Of a DNA stretch of 45,871 bases, positions 19,025-43,389 are shown piece by piece. This DNA comes from Victivallaceae bacterium. Lineage in GTDB: Bacteria > Verrucomicrobiota > Lentisphaeria > Victivallales > Victivallaceae. How positions within the stretch are numbered: the stretch's first letter is position 1; the number at the start of each line of letters is the position of its first letter. The stretch covers positions 1 through 45,871 of the forward strand of contig JAKSOH010000005.1 in NCBI GenBank assembly GCA_024405675.1. Reading direction: 5' to 3'. Under the pieces are notes generated by a model. That model searched no databases and had not been told where the DNA came from. It saw only the letters and a list, made by a program, of their open reading frames with translations. The translations under genes were made by a program, and so were the position numbers.

Positions 19025-20296
19025 CTATAGCCATCCGGCGCATATCTTCACATTATCCAACATGATTTTCCCGTGCTCTGGAATAATCGCCACCCGCACC
19101 TTGTCGCATCCGCGCAACCATTCCGGGGCCACGCGGTAGACGCAATGAAACGGCTTACCGGGAACGCGGTTCCAGCGCCCCAGGTGCATGTACCGGAATC
19201 CGCCCCTGTCATCATAGTATCCGAACAGCATGACATCCATGCCGGCGCGGCCATCCATGGAAACGGCATCGAACGAAAGCGTCATGTTCCCGTTGGCCAG
19301 AAGCGGCGACATCAGGTACATCCTCGAAAACGCCTCCACCACCAGCGAACCGGCGCCAGCCAGAACGGAACCGGATCCAGAAACCACCTCGATATTGAAG
19401 CTGCTAGATTCTCCCATGACATCGGGGTAATAGCAATAAACGCCACGCGGGTAAACATGCGGCTTCAGGTAAAAACCGTATCCGCGCCTTGCGAATTTCT
19501 CCGCATATTCCGGCAGCCATCCGGATGCCGCGTCCGACTCGAAATCCCAGGACACGAGCGCCTTTCCCCCTTCCCCCCTCCCCGCATTTCCGGCTTCCTC
19601 CATCCGGAACAGATAGAGACTGCGACGGGAGCTGTTCGCTATCTTTCCGCAATACAGGAGCGAAAGCCGGTCGCGAAGAGACGCCGGCAGATCCGCCGGA
19701 CACCGGCCGATGCCATCGCGGCTCTGGAAAAGCAGGTACTTGACACCGGAAGTTCCCTGAAGAAGCCCGGAGAAATACAGCAGCGAATCTCGCACGGAGA
19801 AATCCCTGATGATATTTCCATCATAGCGGACCACTCCGCTCATTGCGATGTCGGGACGGAGAAATCCGATCCGGTAGAATTCCGAGGCGGGAACAACCGG
19901 CACACGACCATCCGATGCAGCGGGGAGCATGCCGATGCAATCTACGAAATTGGCGGATCTACGGTTGACGTGCAGCGATTCGGCCATATTCAAGGCGACA
20001 ATGATGCCGACGATAGCGCAAACCAGTTTCCGATGACCAAGGCGGCGGACAGCCCAATCGGCGCACAACGCGACAACGATTGCGCATGGGATCAATACGG
20101 ATGCCCAGTATCTCGTGGTGACGACGCCGACCATGGCGCGCCAACCGACCATGACGGCGAACACCGTCAAGGCGAACACCATCCAGCGGCCAAGACGCCT
20201 GGCGCCCGCCAGGGCCAGGATTACGCAACTGACGACGACCGCGCAGGCGAACGGCTCGAAGAGGAACGACAGCAATTTCCTGACGAACAAGCTCAT
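19025..20296 (-). CDS. C-terminal half of a split GT-C glycosyltransferase with an extracytoplasmic beta-sandwich-like domain
   Basis: 423 residues. About four membrane helices lie in the first 110 residues, including a loop motif VTTRYWASV, then about 300 extracytoplasmic residues. The last 150 look like a lectin or jelly-roll domain: LVSWDFESDAASGW, alternating beta-type strands, and a closing IMLDNVKIC. The gene begins with ATG 20296 inside the stop of the preceding gene (ATGA). That preceding protein looks like the N-half of a GT-C (PMT/ArnT-like) enzyme and stops where this one begins. The same split occurs at 38115-42112, with a similar helix start and a matching GTRY loop. I therefore read it as a partner subunit and not an independent enzyme. 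A longer frame to 20437 is a shadow of the neighbour. Confidence 0.65.
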   Translation of the reverse strand: MSLFVRKLLSFLFEPFACAVVVSCVILALAGARRLGRWMVFALTVFAVMVGWRAMVGVVTTRYWASVLIPCAIVVALCADWAVRRLGHRKLVCAIVGIIVALNMAESLHVNRRSANFVDCIGMLPAASDGRVPVVPASEFYRIGFLRPDIAMSGVVRYDGNIIRDFSVRDSLLYFSGLLQGTSGVKYLLFQSRDGIGRCPADLPASLRDRLSLLYCGKIANSSRRSLYLFRMEEAGNAGRGEGGKALVSWDFESDAASGWLPEYAEKFARRGYGFYLKPHVYPRGVYCYYPDVMGESSSFNIEVVSGSGSVLAGAGSLVVEAFSRMYLMSPLLANGNMTLSFDAVSMDGRAGMDVMLFGYYDDRGGFRYMHLGRWNRVPGKPFHCVYRVAPEWLRGCDKVRVAIIPEHGKIMLDNVKICAGWL

Positions 20297-21084
20297 CTCG
20301 CACCGCCGGCGAAAACGGAGAAATACGTTGCAAAGGATCCCATCACGGCGGATATTCCGGAAACTCCGAACATGGTGAAAACCATGACGCACCATGTCGC
20401 GACGAAACATCCCGCCAGCGACGTCACGGCCAGGCAAACGCGCGGCAGCGTCCTAAGACGCAACGGCCTCCAGGCCATGGCCAGAACCAGCGCATCCACC
20501 AGAAGCACCTCGGCCATCTCGAACCGGGCGAGACAGGCCAGCGCGCCGAAAATCCCCGCGAGAGCGCCGCATCTCGGGGAATCGTCGTACATCTGGTCGA
20601 CGGCCATCGCCATGGACATGGCGCAAAAAAACAAGGCCACGGGCTCCCGAAGAAACGAGGTTCCGATTTCAACAGCGAAGGGATGGAACTCGACGAGCAC
20701 GGCGGCGACCCACGCAGGAAAGACGCGTCCGGGAACGAGTCGACGGACAATCATGAACACCGGTACGGCAACAACCGCGGAAAAAATCATGTTCACGACG
20801 ATTCCGCACCAATAGACCGGCAACGTTCCGCCGCAGGTCAGCAAATGGACCAGGTATAGAAACAACGGGCTTCGAAACGGAAACGCAGGGAAGAGGTCCT
20901 GGGAAAGACGCATGATTTCATCCGTGCCGCCGGCATTCCACGCATTCACGCAAAACACATAGAACGATCCATCGCGAGACGGCATGGATAGCAGCAGCAG
21001 ACGCAGCACGCGGATGCCGACGCCGCCGAGGACGACTGCCATCCAAGCGCAAATTTCCGACCAATGTTTCCGCAAACCGTTCAC
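20293..21084 (-). CDS. N-terminal half of a split GT-C (PMT/ArnT-like) membrane glycosyltransferase
   Basis: 263 residues, almost wholly hydrophobic, with about six or seven membrane helices. The first loop has SMPSRDGSFYVFCVNAW, where the Asp before G-x-x-Y occupies the place of the GT-C catalytic Asp. FLREPVALFFCAM matches the R-E loop of PMT/GT39-like proteins. Such enzymes use polyprenyl-phosphate sugars on the periplasmic side. The protein ends after helix 6-7 and is coupled to the gene at 19025-20296, which would supply the remaining helices. The start appears to be GTG 21084, with ACAGG just upstream. The 146 bases before it hold no gene; a 6-bp stem (GATGCG/CGCATC, about 21115-21136) lies there and is not convincing as a terminator. 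Confidence 0.7.
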   Translation of the reverse strand: MNGLRKHWSEICAWMAVVLGGVGIRVLRLLLLSMPSRDGSFYVFCVNAWNAGGTDEIMRLSQDLFPAFPFRSPLFLYLVHLLTCGGTLPVYWCGIVVNMIFSAVVAVPVFMIVRRLVPGRVFPAWVAAVLVEFHPFAVEIGTSFLREPVALFFCAMSMAMAVDQMYDDSPRCGALAGIFGALACLARFEMAEVLLVDALVLAMAWRPLRLRTLPRVCLAVTSLAGCFVATWCVMVFTMFGVSGISAVMGSFATYFSVFAGGAR

Positions 21085-34502: not shown

Positions 34503-35579
34503 TCAACCGAAAAGTCTGAAATAACAATCGCTGATCCTACGCCATGTATATCTCGATTCGGCTATTGCCTTCATCCGCTTGCCGAGTTCCCTACAATCTC
34601 CAGTACCGATTCCGGCGCAAAGCTCCCTCAATCCTTTGGCATCCTTGAAATACAGGGCCCGATTCTCCGTGGTCATCCGATTGAAATCGACATCGTATGC
34701 AATGACGGGCAGACCGAGGTACATCGCCTCCACGAGCGAAGGATTGGTTCCTCCACAGGAGTGCCCATGCAGATACAATGCACATCTCGACCTGACGGCA
34801 TTCAATTCCCGCTGATCGTAAATCGCCGGCAGCAAATGCAAATTCGGCGAACCATCGTATTTTGCGAAGAGACGACGGGAATATTCGTTATGTTGCCAGT
34901 TACCAACGACGACAAGCGGCATGGGAGAATCCTGCTCAAAAGCGGATAGAAGCATTTCGACATTGTTCTCTGGTTCGATGCGGCACACGGCGAAAGCATA
35001 GTCCTGATCCATGAAAGGATATTCCACGACTTTTTCGTCATGCTCGATCAGGTTCTCCGTATCGGCTCCGTACTCGACAAGTTCGCAACCGTTGCCGTAG
35101 CGTTGCGCGACATAATCGACAATGACCTGGTTGTCGGCGATGACCACATCGGCGTTGCGGACGGCGCAACGTTCGGCGAAACGCAAATACAAGCTCGCCA
35201 AACGCGACCACTTGACCCGCCGCCACTCTAGACCATCGATATTGCAGACAAAACGCTTGCGGCAACGAAAGAAGCGCAGGAAAGGCAGCAACGGGCATCC
35301 ACTGACACCGAGAATCAACAGGGTATCCGCGTAACGGATTGCATCAAGCATGGACCACATGTCGTAGAAGATGCTGGAGATTCCGTTAGCGCCCAAGGGA
35401 ATGTATTTCAGATTCGCACGGCCGATTTTCCTTGGACGCTGTTCAAATGCGGATTTCTGGCAATAGACGGTGAACTCCAGATCATCGCGCTGATAACGGA
35501 CCAACTGTTCAGCCAATGTCTCGAATCCGCCGTAACCGGCCGGGATTCCCCGAGTTCCAATAATCGCAACCTTGTTCAT
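34503..35579 (-). CDS. DUF1972 / GT4 glycosyltransferase (Cps2T/WchF-like)
   Basis: 358 residues. The start NKVAIIGTRGIPAGYGGFETL is the hallmark of the DUF1972 group, followed by NIDGLEWRRVKWS and VVIADNQVIVDY. The C-lobe has LHGHSCGGTNPSLVEAMYLG, with the GT4 nucleotide-sugar site. Characterised relatives are rhamnosyltransferases such as Cps2T; whether rhamnose is used here is not known, as no rml genes are in the window. ATG 35579 overlaps the upstream stop (ATGA). Confidence 0.9.
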   Translation of the reverse strand: MNKVAIIGTRGIPAGYGGFETLAEQLVRYQRDDLEFTVYCQKSAFEQRPRKIGRANLKYIPLGANGISSIFYDMWSMLDAIRYADTLLILGVSGCPLLPFLRFFRCRKRFVCNIDGLEWRRVKWSRLASLYLRFAERCAVRNADVVIADNQVIVDYVAQRYGNGCELVEYGADTENLIEHDEKVVEYPFMDQDYAFAVCRIEPENNVEMLLSAFEQDSPMPLVVVGNWQHNEYSRRLFAKYDGSPNLHLLPAIYDQRELNAVRSRCALYLHGHSCGGTNPSLVEAMYLGLPVIAYDVDFNRMTTENRALYFKDAKGLRELCAGIGTGDCRELGKRMKAIAESRYTWRRISDCYFRLFG

Positions 35580-36891: not shown

Positions 36892-38118
36892 TCAACGACC
36901 TATCATGTATTCAAGCAAATCAGCAAGACGACGGCAGAGGACTGTCCAAGAATACTTTTCAACGACAAGTTCCTTACCCCGGAATCCGATTTCACGGCGC
37001 AACTCCGGACTATCCAACAATCGCAACGTAGATGCGGTCAACCCATCCATCAGTTCTGTCATCGTCGAACCATCGACGACGATGCCACCGGCCTCGGAGA
37101 CACATTGCGCAACGGGATCGCCGGCGATTGTAACAATCGGAAGCCGCGCATACATCGATTGCAAAACCACAGTAGCAAGACCATGATGATACGAAGGATA
37201 AAGCAAGATGTCGGCATCGAAAAGCGCCTGGATCATTTCGGCCTTGTCGACGAATCCTTTCCAAACGACACGGTCCTCCACCCGATATCTGCGGAATATG
37301 CGCCGCATCGCATCTTCCTCCGGACCGCAACCATAAACATAGAGTTCGACATCAAGTCGTTTCGAAGCGATTCTGCCAAACACTTCGGCGGAAAACGTCA
37401 CGCCCTTCCAATGAAGAAGCTCGCTGCAAATCAAGAGACGAATCCTCCCGTCTTCGACGCGATGTCGTTCCGTCCGATATTCCGGTTCGGCGGTATTGAT
37501 ACCGGTCTGTGGATGCCGCAGTATCTTCTTCTGCCAGCGTTTTGGGAAACAGCTCTCTTCTGGCAATGTCCCGCTTTCCAGAATCCAGTCGGCGCATATA
37601 GGTGTCAACAATCGCCCGCTCTCGAATATGCGCAGCAATCCCATGCCACACGAACGCAAGGATTCAAAAAGTTTGACCCTAAACGGCAAGGCACGCCGTA
37701 CCGCCGGATGAATTGCTGTCCGTCCAACGGGGCCCCAGACCGTCATCGGATGACAAAGCATGAAAAGCGATGGCATCGAGAAATTGGCAAACGTAAGATG
37801 CAAGACTAAGTCGAACCCCGACGAATTGACGAACTTGCGGTATTTAAAAAACGCGCAATACTGCCACAAATAGTAGTAAAGACGATAACCGTGCCGCCTC
37901 CTTTTCCAAAAGGACATCCACTTCGGCAAATCGTATCCCAAGAAGACCGGCCTTCTCTCGACGCTGGACAACGCCTGTTCAATGTCCTCGATATTATTGC
38001 TTCTCGTAAGGACATGAACTTCGTGATATCTGGAAAGTTCGTTGACGATATTCCAGCCGATACCGGGTTCGGATCCCTTCTGCGGTTCACAGGCATAGGC
38101 GGAAATGAAAATCTTCAT
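36892..38118 (-). CDS. Glycosyltransferase family 4
   Basis: 408 residues. It starts MKIFISAYACEPQKGSEPGIGWNIVNEL, a GT4 branch with a long donor loop; the middle has WGPVGRTAIHPAVRRALPF. The C-lobe has LLICSELLHWKGVTFSAEVF, YVYGCGPEEDAM and the block LYPSYHHGLATVVLQSMYARLPIV. ATG 38118 overlaps the stop of the preceding gene (ATGA). It is probably co-translated with the split GT-C C-half upstream. Confidence 0.88.
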   Translation of the reverse strand: MKIFISAYACEPQKGSEPGIGWNIVNELSRYHEVHVLTRSNNIEDIEQALSSVERRPVFLGYDLPKWMSFWKRRRHGYRLYYYLWQYCAFFKYRKFVNSSGFDLVLHLTFANFSMPSLFMLCHPMTVWGPVGRTAIHPAVRRALPFRVKLFESLRSCGMGLLRIFESGRLLTPICADWILESGTLPEESCFPKRWQKKILRHPQTGINTAEPEYRTERHRVEDGRIRLLICSELLHWKGVTFSAEVFGRIASKRLDVELYVYGCGPEEDAMRRIFRRYRVEDRVVWKGFVDKAEMIQALFDADILLYPSYHHGLATVVLQSMYARLPIVTIAGDPVAQCVSEAGGIVVDGSTMTELMDGLTASTLRLLDSPELRREIGFRGKELVVEKYSWTVLCRRLADLLEYMIGR

Positions 38119-39332
38119 TGTCTATCCATCCTCACATCGCGCAATTCCACGACACCACGGGTCAACCAAAACAAAACTTCACCTCGCTCGACGCCCGGAC
38201 AATCGGGCAATGCAATATCATATCGCTCGGAGCGTCCGGCTTCCAATGGCAACATTACCACGGGAAAAAGTCCGGGGCCACAAGTCCTAGAAACCTGCAG
38301 AAGAGCATCGGTTTCCGCTTTCACCAAAAAACTCAATCGGCCGCCCTCGGATATCATCAACGATGGCGTGATGGCACACAGATAACCATCAGACTCAAGT
38401 CTAAGCGCATAACCATCCTGACATTTCACTCTGGAAAAATATGCATTGTTCCTGCCGGCCAGGCTGGTATAGAATCTCCATCCTGCCGGCGGGTTGAAAT
38501 TTTCCTTCTGGAGCCGCGGCATGCGTCTGCCGTGGCTATTCAAAATTCGCTGACGCATCTCGGGAGTGGCTTCCTTGGAAAAATCGCCGTTTTCTACAAG
38601 AACACCGCTGGAAAAACATTTTTTATTCTTCGCCGGCAAATAACGGCAGACAACCAAGGCCCGCTTATGGTAACGATTCAACCAGACGAATCCGAGTTGC
38701 GTCACCTGGCCAGGAGCCATCAGTTTCTCAAACTCGGGCAAATGCGCGACTTCGTCGCGGGTTACGACATCAAAAAGGTACACTGCATCATAGTTGCCGT
38801 CATAAACACCAAGATTGCCCTTCAATCCGTACAACAACTCCGCCAGCGGTTGCGAACGATCCGCCATCACCACGGGAATTGTAGAATAATACTGATGACG
38901 CACCCCCTTGCCATCATAAGCAAGCCCCAGCACGCGGGAACGGGACGCAGCATCACGGGCGACCATTTCATAAAGGCGCAACAACTGCCGATCCTCCGGA
39001 TGATAGATCACAGAATGAACTAGGCAGCAAAGCAATCCGGAAAAGAATAGCAAACGTTTCCAAAGGCGTGGCAACGGGAAACTCACAAAGAGATCGATGA
39101 TCCCGAAAAGCGCAATGAACAGAAAGACATTGTGATATCGCGTTCCGCCAATGCCGATGGCCAGCCTCCACACGAAGGCGCCGAGGGCGCCGAGAAAATA
39201 GCACCATCGCACGATGTTGCGCCACTCACCGCAAAATATCATCCGAATCAGCGACCAGACCAAGCTTATGGCGAAGACGACACCGATCGGCTCCCACATT
39301 CCCCGGGATACAAGCAAGATGGATTTCATCAT
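38115..39332 (-). CDS. C-terminal half of the second split GT-C glycosyltransferase, with C-terminal beta-sandwich-like domain
   Basis: 405 residues. It opens MMKSILLVSRGMWEPIGVVF, with helices and the loop IGIGGTRYHNVFLF in the first 100 residues. An extracytoplasmic region follows, with a C-terminal domain (NGDFSKE...PPAGWRFY...AITPSL...GVVELRDVRMDRQ) that has the look of a jelly-roll carbohydrate-binding module. The gene overlaps the end of the fused gene at 39332 as TGATG, with GGGGGA 7 bases before the ATG, an excellent reinitiation site. A GTG at 39356 in the same frame is a possible earlier start. It resembles the 19025-20296 protein in helix order and in its place directly after an N-half gene. 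It is probably a subunit, not a separate transferase. Confidence 0.65.
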   Translation of the reverse strand: MMKSILLVSRGMWEPIGVVFAISLVWSLIRMIFCGEWRNIVRWCYFLGALGAFVWRLAIGIGGTRYHNVFLFIALFGIIDLFVSFPLPRLWKRLLFFSGLLCCLVHSVIYHPEDRQLLRLYEMVARDAASRSRVLGLAYDGKGVRHQYYSTIPVVMADRSQPLAELLYGLKGNLGVYDGNYDAVYLFDVVTRDEVAHLPEFEKLMAPGQVTQLGFVWLNRYHKRALVVCRYLPAKNKKCFSSGVLVENGDFSKEATPEMRQRILNSHGRRMPRLQKENFNPPAGWRFYTSLAGRNNAYFSRVKCQDGYALRLESDGYLCAITPSLMISEGGRLSFLVKAETDALLQVSRTCGPGLFPVVMLPLEAGRSERYDIALPDCPGVERGEVLFWLTRGVVELRDVRMDRQ

Positions 39333-42112
39333 CAGCGCGTCCCCCAAATGCCCCACGACCAGAAATGCGCTTGAAGCCGATCAAGATAGCTATGCCACAC
39401 AGGCGGCATACCCGGCAACAAAGAGAATCCGGCAATACCGAAGACAAAACCCGACAAAGCCGCCACAGGATAGAGTAGCATTCCGCGCCAATCCCTCCTG
39501 GCCAGCAACGCAACAACCGGCAAAGTCAGCGAAACCCATGGCAAAAACTCCAACATCTCGTAACGGCACATGCAACCTGCCGCCATGGCAAATCCGCAAA
39601 GGAACGAAAATGCGGAACCAGTCCAACGTCTTTCCGACCGAACCGCCAACGACCAGAAGGCGATTGTCCATCCAACGAAGAACAGATACAATCCGTCACG
39701 CAACCGGACACAGGAATATTTCACCAGTTTCGGCATCACCGCGCAAAAAAGCGCCGCAGCGAGTCCGGGGAAGTGCCTTCGCCACAAGGCGCGTCCTGCA
39801 AGATAAACGGGAATCACCAGCAGGCTTCCCGCCACCAGGTTGATTGCCAGAGCGGCATTCTCAACGGACATGCCTGCATCGTACAACAGTCTTGTCAGGT
39901 AGAAGTACAGCGACGGACGTCCGATTGCGGAGACGTCAGATCCGGCAGTTAAACTTTGACGCAGCATCTGCATATACGTAATGCCGTCCGTGCTTTCCAC
40001 CGGATTGTGAATGGCGTAGAACCAACGCACCGCTCCCGCCAAAGCAGCAATCATGGTCACGTCAAGGAAACGGCAGATTGTTTTGGCGACAGGTGGCTTC
40101 ATTTGGTAAAGCGCGAGGAACTTTCCAGCCAACTGGGGATTCCCAGCACGATTGAAGTGGTCGTAGCGTTCCAGCAGATACCATTTCCAATAACGCTTGA
40201 CTTCCATTGGGGATATTCCCCAAAGCCGTAGAAGTTCCTTCGCGGAGTTCCATATATCGTGTTCGACGAGAACGCTCCGGCATTCGCGGACGCTTCCAAA
40301 CTGAAGAACCGGATCAACGATGAAATTGAAAAAATCCTCCAGTGGCAATCCCGCCGAAACACCTTCGAAATCGAATATCTGCGGAACTCCGCCTTGCTTC
40401 ACGTTCCATGGCTTGAAATCATGATGGACCGTACCGCGAACAGTCATTCCATCGCGCAAAACTGCAGGAACATCGAATGGCAGCTCGAGGCTGTTCCAGT
40501 AATCGTCCCAGCTTATTTCCGGATACATCTTCGTTTTGAAAAAATCGACGAACACAGTCAAGGGAAGATGATCCCCCCGCCCGTTCGCTTTCAACACATA
40601 CGCCATTTGCAGATGGACGAGATCGTCAGTCGCATCAGCGGACAGCAATTCGGAGAAACGGAAACTTTCCGGCCGCTTCTTCTGCAGCAAACGATAAGAC
40701 TCCAATTCGCGAACTCCACCTGCACGGCTATCTCTGACGAAAAACTTTTCGTAACCGCTTCCATGATGATGGACGACTATCTTGTCGCGCGTTGGGGAAA
40801 TCATCGCGGAATCGTGTATGCAAAGCGTCAATTTCGTTCCCTTTGGCAGAACACGAAGAAGTTCCGCGGCGACTTCGCCATTTCCGACAGCAGCCTTTTG
40901 CCTGAAATATGGGTAGGCAAAAAGCAACAAACACTTCTTAAGTTTGGCAATCCAGGATACTCCCTGATAAAACTCCAAGCTTTTTCTCCAATCTTCGAAG
41001 CTTGCAGCGGAAAAGAAAAACGTCGCGCCGTTAGAGCCGTCAAATTGGAAATAACATCCTTTTTTGCACATAATCTCGTAGCGTTGACCGCACAACACAT
41101 TCAAAACGACAGGAAAAAACAATCGAAGCATATGGTAGGATATCAAAATCAGTATAACGCCAAGAACAACAGTAAACAAGAAGGCGATTATGGAACTCCA
41201 AGCACACTGCGGCATTCCAACGACAATCGTTCTAGCAATCAGAGACAAGACAAGACCATGCGATGCGTAAATATAAAAGGACGGAGTCGTAAACCAGCGG
41301 TACCACAGCCCCTTCGGGGAGAAACAACATTTGTCCAACAAGCAAAGACAGGCCGGAATTGACAACAAATGACATGCCTCCCAAAGGAACATCTGCACCA
41401 ATTCGCCCTGTGGGCATTCGTAATGGATCCACGTTCCGCCAAAGAGCAACAACATGCTGGCCAGACACGTTTTACGATATTGGCAAAAGCAATACAATGA
41501 AATTCGATGAATACGGAAGATCATTCCCAAACAAAATGAAAGAATTATGTAAACGGAAACAGGCAATAACCTGATAAAAAACACACAAATTAGCAATATA
41601 ACCAGAAATCCGGCAGGACGCTTTTTCAAAATCCAATAAAAAACGGGTGAAAGAAGATGAAGGATAAAAATATCACGCAAATACCACAGCGGACCATTGG
41701 CAGGTTGGGGGTAACCGACAATACATCCCAGAATCCCGTGGACACTGTTCAGCTCCAATGTCGTAACACGCTGCCGAACGACAGGCAAGAAAAGAGCACC
41801 TGCCACGAAAAACAAGATGTATATGACATTCCACACAACGTATGGGACGACGATCGATTTGAGTTTTTTCTTAACAAATGCGCAAACATTTTCCTGGGCG
41901 TGGTAGCTAAAATATCCAGAAACAAAGAAAAAACACCCCAGACAATAAGAAAGAGAGGAACACAACCACGATATGCAATCCAGCAAAAGCACCTGACGTA
42001 CATAAATACTTCCACGTACGGCAATCCACGCATGATACACCACTATCGCGAGCAACATCAGCGCCTTGAAATTGGCGATGCAAATATCCTGCTCTTTTCT
42101 CCGTCCCGTCAT
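39332..42112 (-). CDS. Three-domain fusion: acyltransferase-3, APH-like kinase, and N-half of a GT-C glycosyltransferase
   Basis: 926 residues. About 10-355 is an AT3 membrane acyltransferase: FKALMLLAIVVYHAW (family His), then about ten helices. About 375-660 is an APH/choline-kinase-like domain with GTVHHDFKPWNV (residues about 561-571, D565 the catalytic base) followed by IFDFEGVSAG (DFE in place of DxD/DFG). About 675-926 is the start of a GT-C enzyme: ESTDGITYMQML (Asp of the DGxxY motif) and RLRDGLYLFF, then further helices. This last part matches the protein at 20293-21084. The upstream stop overlaps ATG 42112 (ATGA), so the in-frame start at 42193 is a shadow. The joining of these domains in one frame is seen directly. 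Substrates are unknown. The AT3 part would acylate the glycan and the kinase domain would phosphorylate a sugar or sugar-like alcohol (inference). Confidence 0.8.
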   Translation of the reverse strand: MTGRRKEQDICIANFKALMLLAIVVYHAWIAVRGSIYVRQVLLLDCISWLCSSLSYCLGCFFFVSGYFSYHAQENVCAFVKKKLKSIVVPYVVWNVIYILFFVAGALFLPVVRQRVTTLELNSVHGILGCIVGYPQPANGPLWYLRDIFILHLLSPVFYWILKKRPAGFLVILLICVFFIRLLPVSVYIILSFCLGMIFRIHRISLYCFCQYRKTCLASMLLLFGGTWIHYECPQGELVQMFLWEACHLLSIPACLCLLDKCCFSPKGLWYRWFTTPSFYIYASHGLVLSLIARTIVVGMPQCAWSSIIAFLFTVVLGVILILISYHMLRLFFPVVLNVLCGQRYEIMCKKGCYFQFDGSNGATFFFSAASFEDWRKSLEFYQGVSWIAKLKKCLLLFAYPYFRQKAAVGNGEVAAELLRVLPKGTKLTLCIHDSAMISPTRDKIVVHHHGSGYEKFFVRDSRAGGVRELESYRLLQKKRPESFRFSELLSADATDDLVHLQMAYVLKANGRGDHLPLTVFVDFFKTKMYPEISWDDYWNSLELPFDVPAVLRDGMTVRGTVHHDFKPWNVKQGGVPQIFDFEGVSAGLPLEDFFNFIVDPVLQFGSVRECRSVLVEHDIWNSAKELLRLWGISPMEVKRYWKWYLLERYDHFNRAGNPQLAGKFLALYQMKPPVAKTICRFLDVTMIAALAGAVRWFYAIHNPVESTDGITYMQMLRQSLTAGSDVSAIGRPSLYFYLTRLLYDAGMSVENAALAINLVAGSLLVIPVYLAGRALWRRHFPGLAAALFCAVMPKLVKYSCVRLRDGLYLFFVGWTIAFWSLAVRSERRWTGSAFSFLCGFAMAAGCMCRYEMLEFLPWVSLTLPVVALLARRDWRGMLLYPVAALSGFVFGIAGFSLLPGMPPVWHSYLDRLQAHFWSWGIWGTR
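39340..39345 (-). promoter_or_regulatory. Ribosome binding site for the split GT-C C-half
   Basis: GGGGGA on the minus strand, 7 bases before ATG 39332, within the end of the upstream gene. It decides the coupled TGATG start. The G5 run could alternatively be a slippage site. Confidence 0.6.
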
Positions 42113-43389
42113 CTCACAAAACCTTGTTTCTTTGTCAAAATGTCCAATATCTGGTTGACAGCGGATTCCGGCGTACCATTGTTGTCTATCCAATGATAAC
42201 GCCGATCCTTTGAAGAAAGCAATTCCAATCGTGAGTAAATTACGTCGATGTCCTCTTTCGTCAATTCAGTCTTTCGCTTCAAAATCGTTTCCGAATCAAC
42301 GCGAAACAGGAAATTGTATTCACATCGTGGCAAGAAAAATCTCCAGAACGCAAGAAAGCCTGGTTTCAAATAAATGCGACTGCGCTCACCATCGACAATA
42401 ACATCGGTAAAATACCGATCGAAAAAGATGATATGCTTACGCTGGCGCAAAGGCATAACTGCAATCAAATAGCCAAAACTGTAATCAAAGGCATAGTAGG
42501 CCAACCGAATCAACGAGCTTACCAGGCCGGTCCTGTTCCCGCGATGCGGTTGATTGAAATCGCGATCGACTTCATCGATTATCCGCGCCTTATGGGCTAC
42601 CTCGCCAAGATTTGGCAATAGCGACGGACGAAAATGGAACAAAACCGGAGTATTGACGGCAAGGCGTTGGCGCAAAAGTTCGATTACCGTCGTCTTACCA
42701 CATCCATCCGGACCGGAAAACGAAACCATCAACCCACGGCGTCGGAAAAGATCAAGGAAATATCGCCACAAGAACTCGCCCATCCGCCGCATGGCTCTGG
42801 AAAAATCACATTTCAAGGCAGCCGCAAACGCATGACAACGCAACGTCCACTTGCCGGTAGCGTCCCAATACTCCAGTCCGCCGCGTCCGCCGGACATCCG
42901 ATTCAAATAGGCATTGATCTTTTCGCCGTCTTCCGCAATCGCCGATAAGCGAACATCGGCATATTTAGACGGATATTCGGCGCCGAGTATCCGCGAATAC
43001 AGATATTTCGGCAAGAATGTCAAACTCGGGGGGAGATGATATATCCGTCCATTGAAGACGCGCTGATCCAAAACCCGTTCTTCGTCCAGGAGATCAATCC
43101 CCATCCAGGCAAAATTACGTTGAAAATCTAACTGGAACGCCTCATGGTCATCGTCAATTATGACAACAGTAAAAAACTGATTGTCCTCGTTGGTATAGAG
43201 AATCCTACAATGGTCCTGCGCCATGAGCTGCGGCAGCACTCCGCGAAGACGCGACAATTCGCCACGGGACAGCAAAATATCGATATCGCGACTGGGGTTA
43301 TCGTCCGGAAGGCCTTTGAAATTTCGAAGGACCGCATAGCGATATTCCCTATTCAGAACATCAAAAAGATTAGCCAGAAACGTCTTCAT
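42109..43389 (-). CDS. NTase-like domain fused to a thymidylate-kinase-like P-loop kinase
   Basis: 426 residues. Residues about 15-160 form a domain with YAVLRNFKGLPDDNPSRDIDILL (D35, D37) and QLDFQ (D88), the DxD...D layout of nucleotidyltransferases. A linker leads to a P-loop kinase from about residue 218: VSFSGPDGCGKTTVIELLRQ (P-loop about 226-234), a thymidylate-kinase-type core with IIFFDRYFTDVIVDGERSRI (the DR block) and a closing lid. It is too divergent to be taken as a housekeeping Tmk, and the N-terminal fusion and glycan context argue for a sugar- or nucleotide-linked role. It is coupled to the GT2 before it and the fused gene after it (ATGA on both sides). Confidence 0.8.
   Translation of the reverse strand: MKTFLANLFDVLNREYRYAVLRNFKGLPDDNPSRDIDILLSRGELSRLRGVLPQLMAQDHCRILYTNEDNQFFTVVIIDDDHEAFQLDFQRNFAWMGIDLLDEERVLDQRVFNGRIYHLPPSLTFLPKYLYSRILGAEYPSKYADVRLSAIAEDGEKINAYLNRMSGGRGGLEYWDATGKWTLRCHAFAAALKCDFSRAMRRMGEFLWRYFLDLFRRRGLMVSFSGPDGCGKTTVIELLRQRLAVNTPVLFHFRPSLLPNLGEVAHKARIIDEVDRDFNQPHRGNRTGLVSSLIRLAYYAFDYSFGYLIAVMPLRQRKHIIFFDRYFTDVIVDGERSRIYLKPGFLAFWRFFLPRCEYNFLFRVDSETILKRKTELTKEDIDVIYSRLELLSSKDRRYHWIDNNGTPESAVNQILDILTKKQGFVR

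Follow-up and report, generated by a model that had tools for sequence, protein, structure and literature searches.

The known GT-C glycosyltransferases of the PMT/ArnT type (PF13231, PF02366) are single-chain enzymes, in line with the structure paper on Gpi14 (PMC12653191). Two modules, one conserved and one variable, are distinguished within the GT-C chain; according to that paper, transmembrane helices (TM) 1-7 of Gpi14 form the former and TM8-12 the latter. Glycosyltransferases of another fold, GT-B, can be split: in Alg13/Alg14 and EpsE/EpsF the cut lies at the domain border and the two chains work as a heteromer (PMC4973528). Two further systems are relevant. In WbdD, the kinase-methyltransferase of the O9a O-antigen, the kinase acts on a polyprenol-linked glycan (PMC3482155). 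For AT3 (Acyl_transf_3) proteins, the commonest fusions named are with SGNH and alanine racemase domains, and the word 'kinase' is absent from the main text of the review (PMC9558356). This report examines a stretch of 45,871 nucleotides (the window) from a Victivallaceae bacterium (assembly GCA_024405675.1, contig JAKSOH010000005.1) and a single protein encoded in it, here termed P0001 (window:39332-42112, minus strand). Neither a split GT-C enzyme nor an acyltransferase-kinase-GT-C protein was found described in the open-licence papers searched.

The translated frame of P0001 comprises 926 residues with no inner stop and has three successive modules: AT3 acyltransferase, APH-like kinase and, last, the N-terminal half of a GT-C glycosyltransferase. 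The Acyl_transf_3 profile (PF01757; cut-off 31 bits) matches residues 14-326 with 76 bits and an E value of 3.6e-21. A separate scan of the final 250 residues gives a PMT_2 match of 32.3 bits (curated cut-off 26.1). The original prediction, which was made from the letters of the DNA and placed an acyltransferase, an APH-like kinase and a GT-C N-half in one polypeptide, is borne out by these profile matches, the kinase residues described below and the open frame. Its label 'N-half' was also apt: the other half is encoded by the adjoining gene on the minus strand, window:38115-39332 (P0002, counted from the ATG at 39332), for which no Pfam match was obtained. At the level of sequence, there are three modules, a conserved split of the GT-C enzyme, a kinase fusion in three genomes, and overlapping genes. 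The best explanation, with a probability of about 0.5, is that P0001 is an in-frame fusion within a surface-polysaccharide operon; its GT-C half is predicted to work only with P0002, and its kinase to phosphorylate a sugar of a lipid-linked glycan at the cytosolic face. The parts of P0001 and its partner are as follows.

41081..42112, minus strand: AT3 acyltransferase module, P0001 residues 1-344 (PF01757 profile match at 14-326; H27 invariant)
41078..41080, minus strand: codon 345 (TAC), in the alignment directly 3' of the end point of two of five related acyltransferases
40085..41071, minus strand: APH-like kinase, residues 348-676, with its own ATG retained at residue 348 (Met348 at 41071; alignment)
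40403..40426, minus strand: kinase loop HHDFKPWN, residues 563-570 (translation; 40-row alignment)
39335..40084, minus strand: GT-C N-half (conserved module), residues 677-926, seven predicted helices, C-terminal end predicted outside (PMT_2, 32.3 bits; hydropathy)
39330..39334, minus strand: TGATG, the P0001 stop and the ATG of the C-half gene, with a one-base overlap (sequence)
38115..39332, minus strand: GT-C C-half gene (P0002 from its ATG), four predicted helices and a soluble domain (hydropathy; no Pfam match)

Membership of the first module in the AT3 family stands by profile, and acyltransferase activity is predicted only. Like other AT3 proteins, it lies in a polysaccharide locus and keeps the conserved His of helix 1 (H27), which is invariant in the six aligned rows (P0001 and five related copies). 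A conserved Arg of helix 1 is essential in characterised OafB-type AT3 enzymes, according to the literature; in an alignment that does not include OafB itself, P0001 has Lys at the matching column, and the five related copies have Lys (two), Arg (two) or Ser (one).

The joint between acyltransferase and kinase is the least secure part of the protein, occurring only in this genome among the relatives found. Of the five related copies, two stop at LTGNR or LTGGR and a third extends about nine residues beyond this point; P0001 has a matching CGQR (to residue 344), then YEI, then Met348 of the kinase, and its codon 345, TAC, is one base from a stop codon. In a second genome of the order, G040, an acyltransferase-like stretch (L032:4441-5577) between the kinase and its upstream neighbour, NTkin, ends in TGA one codon before the kinase ATG; this stretch appears frame-broken, and no intact acyltransferase open reading frame (ORF) was recognised at that locus. 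These features tip the balance slightly towards the view that the joint arose by incidental loss of a stop codon, or reflects a sequence or strain variant of one base; on this view a stand-alone acyltransferase and a kinase/GT-C half that starts at Met348 are what actually works. Against this view, no clear ribosome-binding site is seen by eye ahead of Met348, and P0001 is on record on two contigs; these contigs, one of which is this window, share a single database entry and may not be independent. Given that single entry, the ends of the related copies and the stop in G040, the joint can at most be of recent origin, and a sequence or strain variant may account for it. The third-position content of guanine plus cytosine climbs along P0001 (acyltransferase 0.50, kinase 0.54, GT-C half 0.61), and no clear foreign border is apparent within this profile.

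No other protein with the three-part order was found among the relatives searched, where one database set was size-filtered below the length of P0001, and the unusual module order noted originally is in this sense real. A three-part fusion family was also considered and rejected, as the same relatives contained no further member. The stop-loss account is limited to the acyltransferase joint, because the fusion of kinase and GT-C half is better supported.

The kinase is intact-looking and predicted to be active, since its putative catalytic residues (K456, E469, H563, D565, N570 and D581-F582-E583, named by the roles of such residues in this fold) are invariant across 40 aligned kinase rows, an alignment that left out acyltransferase rows. 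The motif HHDFKPWN...DFE, with the HxD...N and D-F-E residues, is thus present between two membrane modules, as had been proposed. The Pfam APH score of the P0001 kinase is 17.3 bits, under the cut-off of 23.2; among relatives, P0003 (29.4) and P0005 (29.6) score above and P0061 below it.

Within the order, 7/137 genomes carry the kinase. It is fused to the GT-C half in this genome (G000) and two others of the same genus, G006 and G040, through a short linker of nearly constant length, and stands as a separate neighbour of the GT-C half in G009 and G344. In G010, at least the GT4a glycosyltransferase gene lies between the two; the contig of G318 begins inside the kinase, followed by GT4a, and that of G006 ends inside it. 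P0003 (579 residues) begins with the kinase, lacks the acyltransferase and agrees with G006 where compared by eye; it therefore probably represents the same form rather than a fourth case. It is also the only one of 65 database relatives to exceed 361 residues, under a size filter that leaves out P0001 itself. In a tree, the three fused kinases (window, P0003 and L115) form one clade against 67 others, with a Shimodaira-Hasegawa-like approximate likelihood ratio test (SH-aLRT) value of 100. As judged from sequence, the kinase-to-GT-C-half fusion is real but local: one clade, three genomes. The original prediction had named absence of the fusion from all relatives as evidence against itself; such absence was indeed found for the three-part form, whereas the kinase and GT-C half are fused in G006 and G040 as well.

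Between neighbouring genes, four-base overlaps occur at 43386-43389, 42109-42112, 38115-38118, 36892-36895 and 35576-35579 (ORF coordinates; one start is TTG), and a one-base overlap (TGATG) at 39332. By profile scan, the neighbours include GT9, GT2, GT4 and DUF1972-GT4 enzymes, and for this reason the locus is taken as a surface-polysaccharide operon. Three neighbours recur in what follows.

42109..43389, minus strand: NTkin, a D-x-D domain and a P-loop kinase, with a 4-base overlap with P0001 (ORF list, profile scan)
36892..38118, minus strand: GT4a glycosyltransferase, near the kinase in 11/11 named loci (profile scan)
34503..35579, minus strand: DUF1972 GT4 (Cps2T-like), a single ORF here, two genes in most relatives (profile scan)

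Each of the 11 named loci has the kinase together with both a GT4a relative (identity as low as 22%) and a DUF1972 GT4. NTkin, with invariant D34 and D36 in its N-terminal part, is upstream of the APH-like kinase in all eight named loci that reach that far, across several phyla. Alternatively, the product of the kinase might be a phosphorylated sugar or polyol from which a nucleotide-activated donor is made, with the GT-C fusion a mere convenience of a shared operon. APH-like folds mostly act on small molecules, and NTkin could itself belong to precursor synthesis. The constant company of GT4a and the fixing of the kinase on a membrane chain, which suggests a membrane-linked substrate, speak the other way, neither being a strong point; this alternative is considered unlikely.

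The GT-C enzyme to which P0001 contributes differs from its described counterparts in that its modules are not on one chain. The N-half resembles PMT/ArnT-type enzymes in its profile match and in its seven-helix first module, as in Gpi14; the chain ends after predicted helix 7, and the rest lies in a second gene. By hydropathy, the C-half has four helices; a fifth call, inside its soluble domain, was taken as false. This break would be a natural cut at the border between conserved and variable modules, given the TM1-7/TM8-12 division described in the Gpi14 paper (PMC12653191). As in Alg13/Alg14 and EpsE/EpsF, a glycosyltransferase appears to be divided into two chains, here a predicted pairing based on gene order; unlike in those GT-B enzymes, both parts are membrane-embedded. 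Among 14 aligned N-halves, 12 match PMT_2 at E up to 1, and D709 and Y713 (D33 and Y37 of the N-half) are invariant in all 14 rows. D709, an acidic residue in the first outer loop, presumably has the role of its counterpart in other GT-C enzymes.

The split recurs widely. A profile built from 14 split members was used to gather GT-C rows, and 79 N-half domains, a part of the listed places and all within this phylum, were compared: 59 stop soon after the module, 18 continue as a single chain and two are cut by contig ends. A recognised C-half gene lies next door to 56 of the 59, including both pairs in the window. The three without one are L088, L095 and L099; in the gene after the L099 N-half, four helices followed by a long remainder are nonetheless predicted. 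Four helices are predicted within the first 220 residues in 47/54 C-halves. In the single chain L097, the N-half (112-356) and the C-half (368-589) are matched in order. On a quick tree, in which many branches are long and support is uneven, the split label requires three changes against 16.3 in shuffles (0/500 shuffles as low), and the single chains L096 and L097 fall among split rows.

A frameshift artefact behind the GT-C half was considered and rejected, because the break recurs in 56 pairs in all three frame relations, with an offset from N-half to C-half of 2 in 40, 1 in 10 and 0 in six. Programmed frameshifting that joins the halves in translation is very improbable: the frame changes at 50/56 junctions, 40 of them in one direction, but ten shift the opposite way and six are in frame behind a stop, the start codon overlaps the stop in 27/56 (ATGA in 23, stop-plus-ATG in four) as is typical of translational coupling, Shine-Dalgarno-like stretches are seen by eye ahead of several C-half starts, and no standard slippery site is seen by eye at the window junction. 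Two of the 56 pairs, L023 and L090, lack any start codon at a distance of up to 60 bases from the N-half stop, and the L090 C-half match is weak (E 0.034).

Three related arrangements were observed. A second split GT-C pair lies on the minus strand of the window (N-half 20293-21084, C-half 19025-20437), with an ATGA junction and a weak C-half match (E about 3e-7). In genome G280, a GT4 glycosyltransferase is fused ahead of a GT-C N-half (L099:1855-3753, minus strand), a different cytosolic enzyme in the same place. In genome G032, a GtrA-type membrane domain is fused ahead of a single-chain GT-C (L098:941-2977).

The DUF1972 GT4 is a second enzyme that is variably split. It is one ORF here and two genes in seven named relatives (L115, L116, L117, L118, L119, L120 and L123), cut, by eye, in an apparent linker between its two domains. 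In six of these seven, a start codon lies no more than 7 bases from the stop of the N-part; in L120, an earlier TAA shortens that part. Matches at E up to 1e-15 occur in 12/137 genomes of the order. Nine are split, eight as two matches and G010 with TAA between; the unsplit three are this genome, G038 and G025, the match in G025 beginning at the end of a contig. Parts that the genus otherwise encodes separately are thus joined in this genome, a pattern suggesting that those chains, where separate, act in complexes.

The proposed mechanism is as follows. Together, the two GT-C chains would make up a single enzyme that transfers a sugar from a polyprenyl-phosphate donor at the outer face. In the cytosol, the fused kinase would phosphorylate a sugar within the lipid-linked glycan as it grows and before export, held at the membrane beside the glycan by its fusion to the GT-C half. 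The acyltransferase, whose joint is peculiar to this genome, would add acyl groups to that glycan on the outside. GT-C enzymes glycosylate on the outside, while ATP is inside. The AT3 literature places acylation outside as well, so that the two transferases would act on one side of the membrane and the kinase on the other. Phosphorylation, acylation and glycosylation together on one scaffold, as originally envisaged, are therefore not supported: the kinase would face away from the other two activities, the acyltransferase is joined only here, and the GT-C part is incomplete without P0002. One scaffold could carry out the three modifications on one substrate at successive times, not at a single membrane face.

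A cytosolic kinase acting on a lipid-linked glycan is plausible because WbdD does so in another pathway, and its kinase is likewise fused to another O-polysaccharide assembly enzyme (PMC3482155). Unlike the P0001 kinase, that of WbdD is of the eukaryotic protein-kinase type and is fused to a methyltransferase; no sequence relation between the two was found in the solved-structure search. The GT4 fusion in G280 counts in favour of the fused, membrane-held kinase, as another cytosolic enzyme occupies that place. Several observations weigh on the other side. Most known kinase relatives are stand-alone, and a GT-C half is recognised in just 5/11 named kinase loci, with none in Desulfosediminicola, a Flavobacteriales metagenome-assembled genome, Winogradskyella or Polaribacter; with no such half recognised in the remaining 6/11, the work of the kinase needs no GT-C. 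Because the gathering profile came from split members, the counts overstate the proportion of split forms. Hydropathy yields seven helices in just 27/59 N-halves (six in 21, eight in 6, five in 5), and sequence search returned no usable relative of solved structure for either the kinase or the GT-C halves.

The neighbours in this operon, likely acting as complexes, are variably split and fused; each fusion is probably the covalent counterpart of a complex whose members are encoded separately in relatives. At somewhat short of even odds, a two-gene GT-C family would extend through the Lentisphaeria order to which this genome belongs as a GT-C counterpart of Alg13/Alg14, cut at the module border; the cytosolic end of its catalytic chain would serve as a docking post for a kinase, a GT4 and, here, also an acyltransferase, to give surface-glycan assembly lines. 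If the conserved break at the module border is natural, the modules of GT-C enzymes would be separable, and each could be purified, swapped and assayed apart. The joins and splits within such operons hint at which enzymes of a surface-polysaccharide pathway touch each other.

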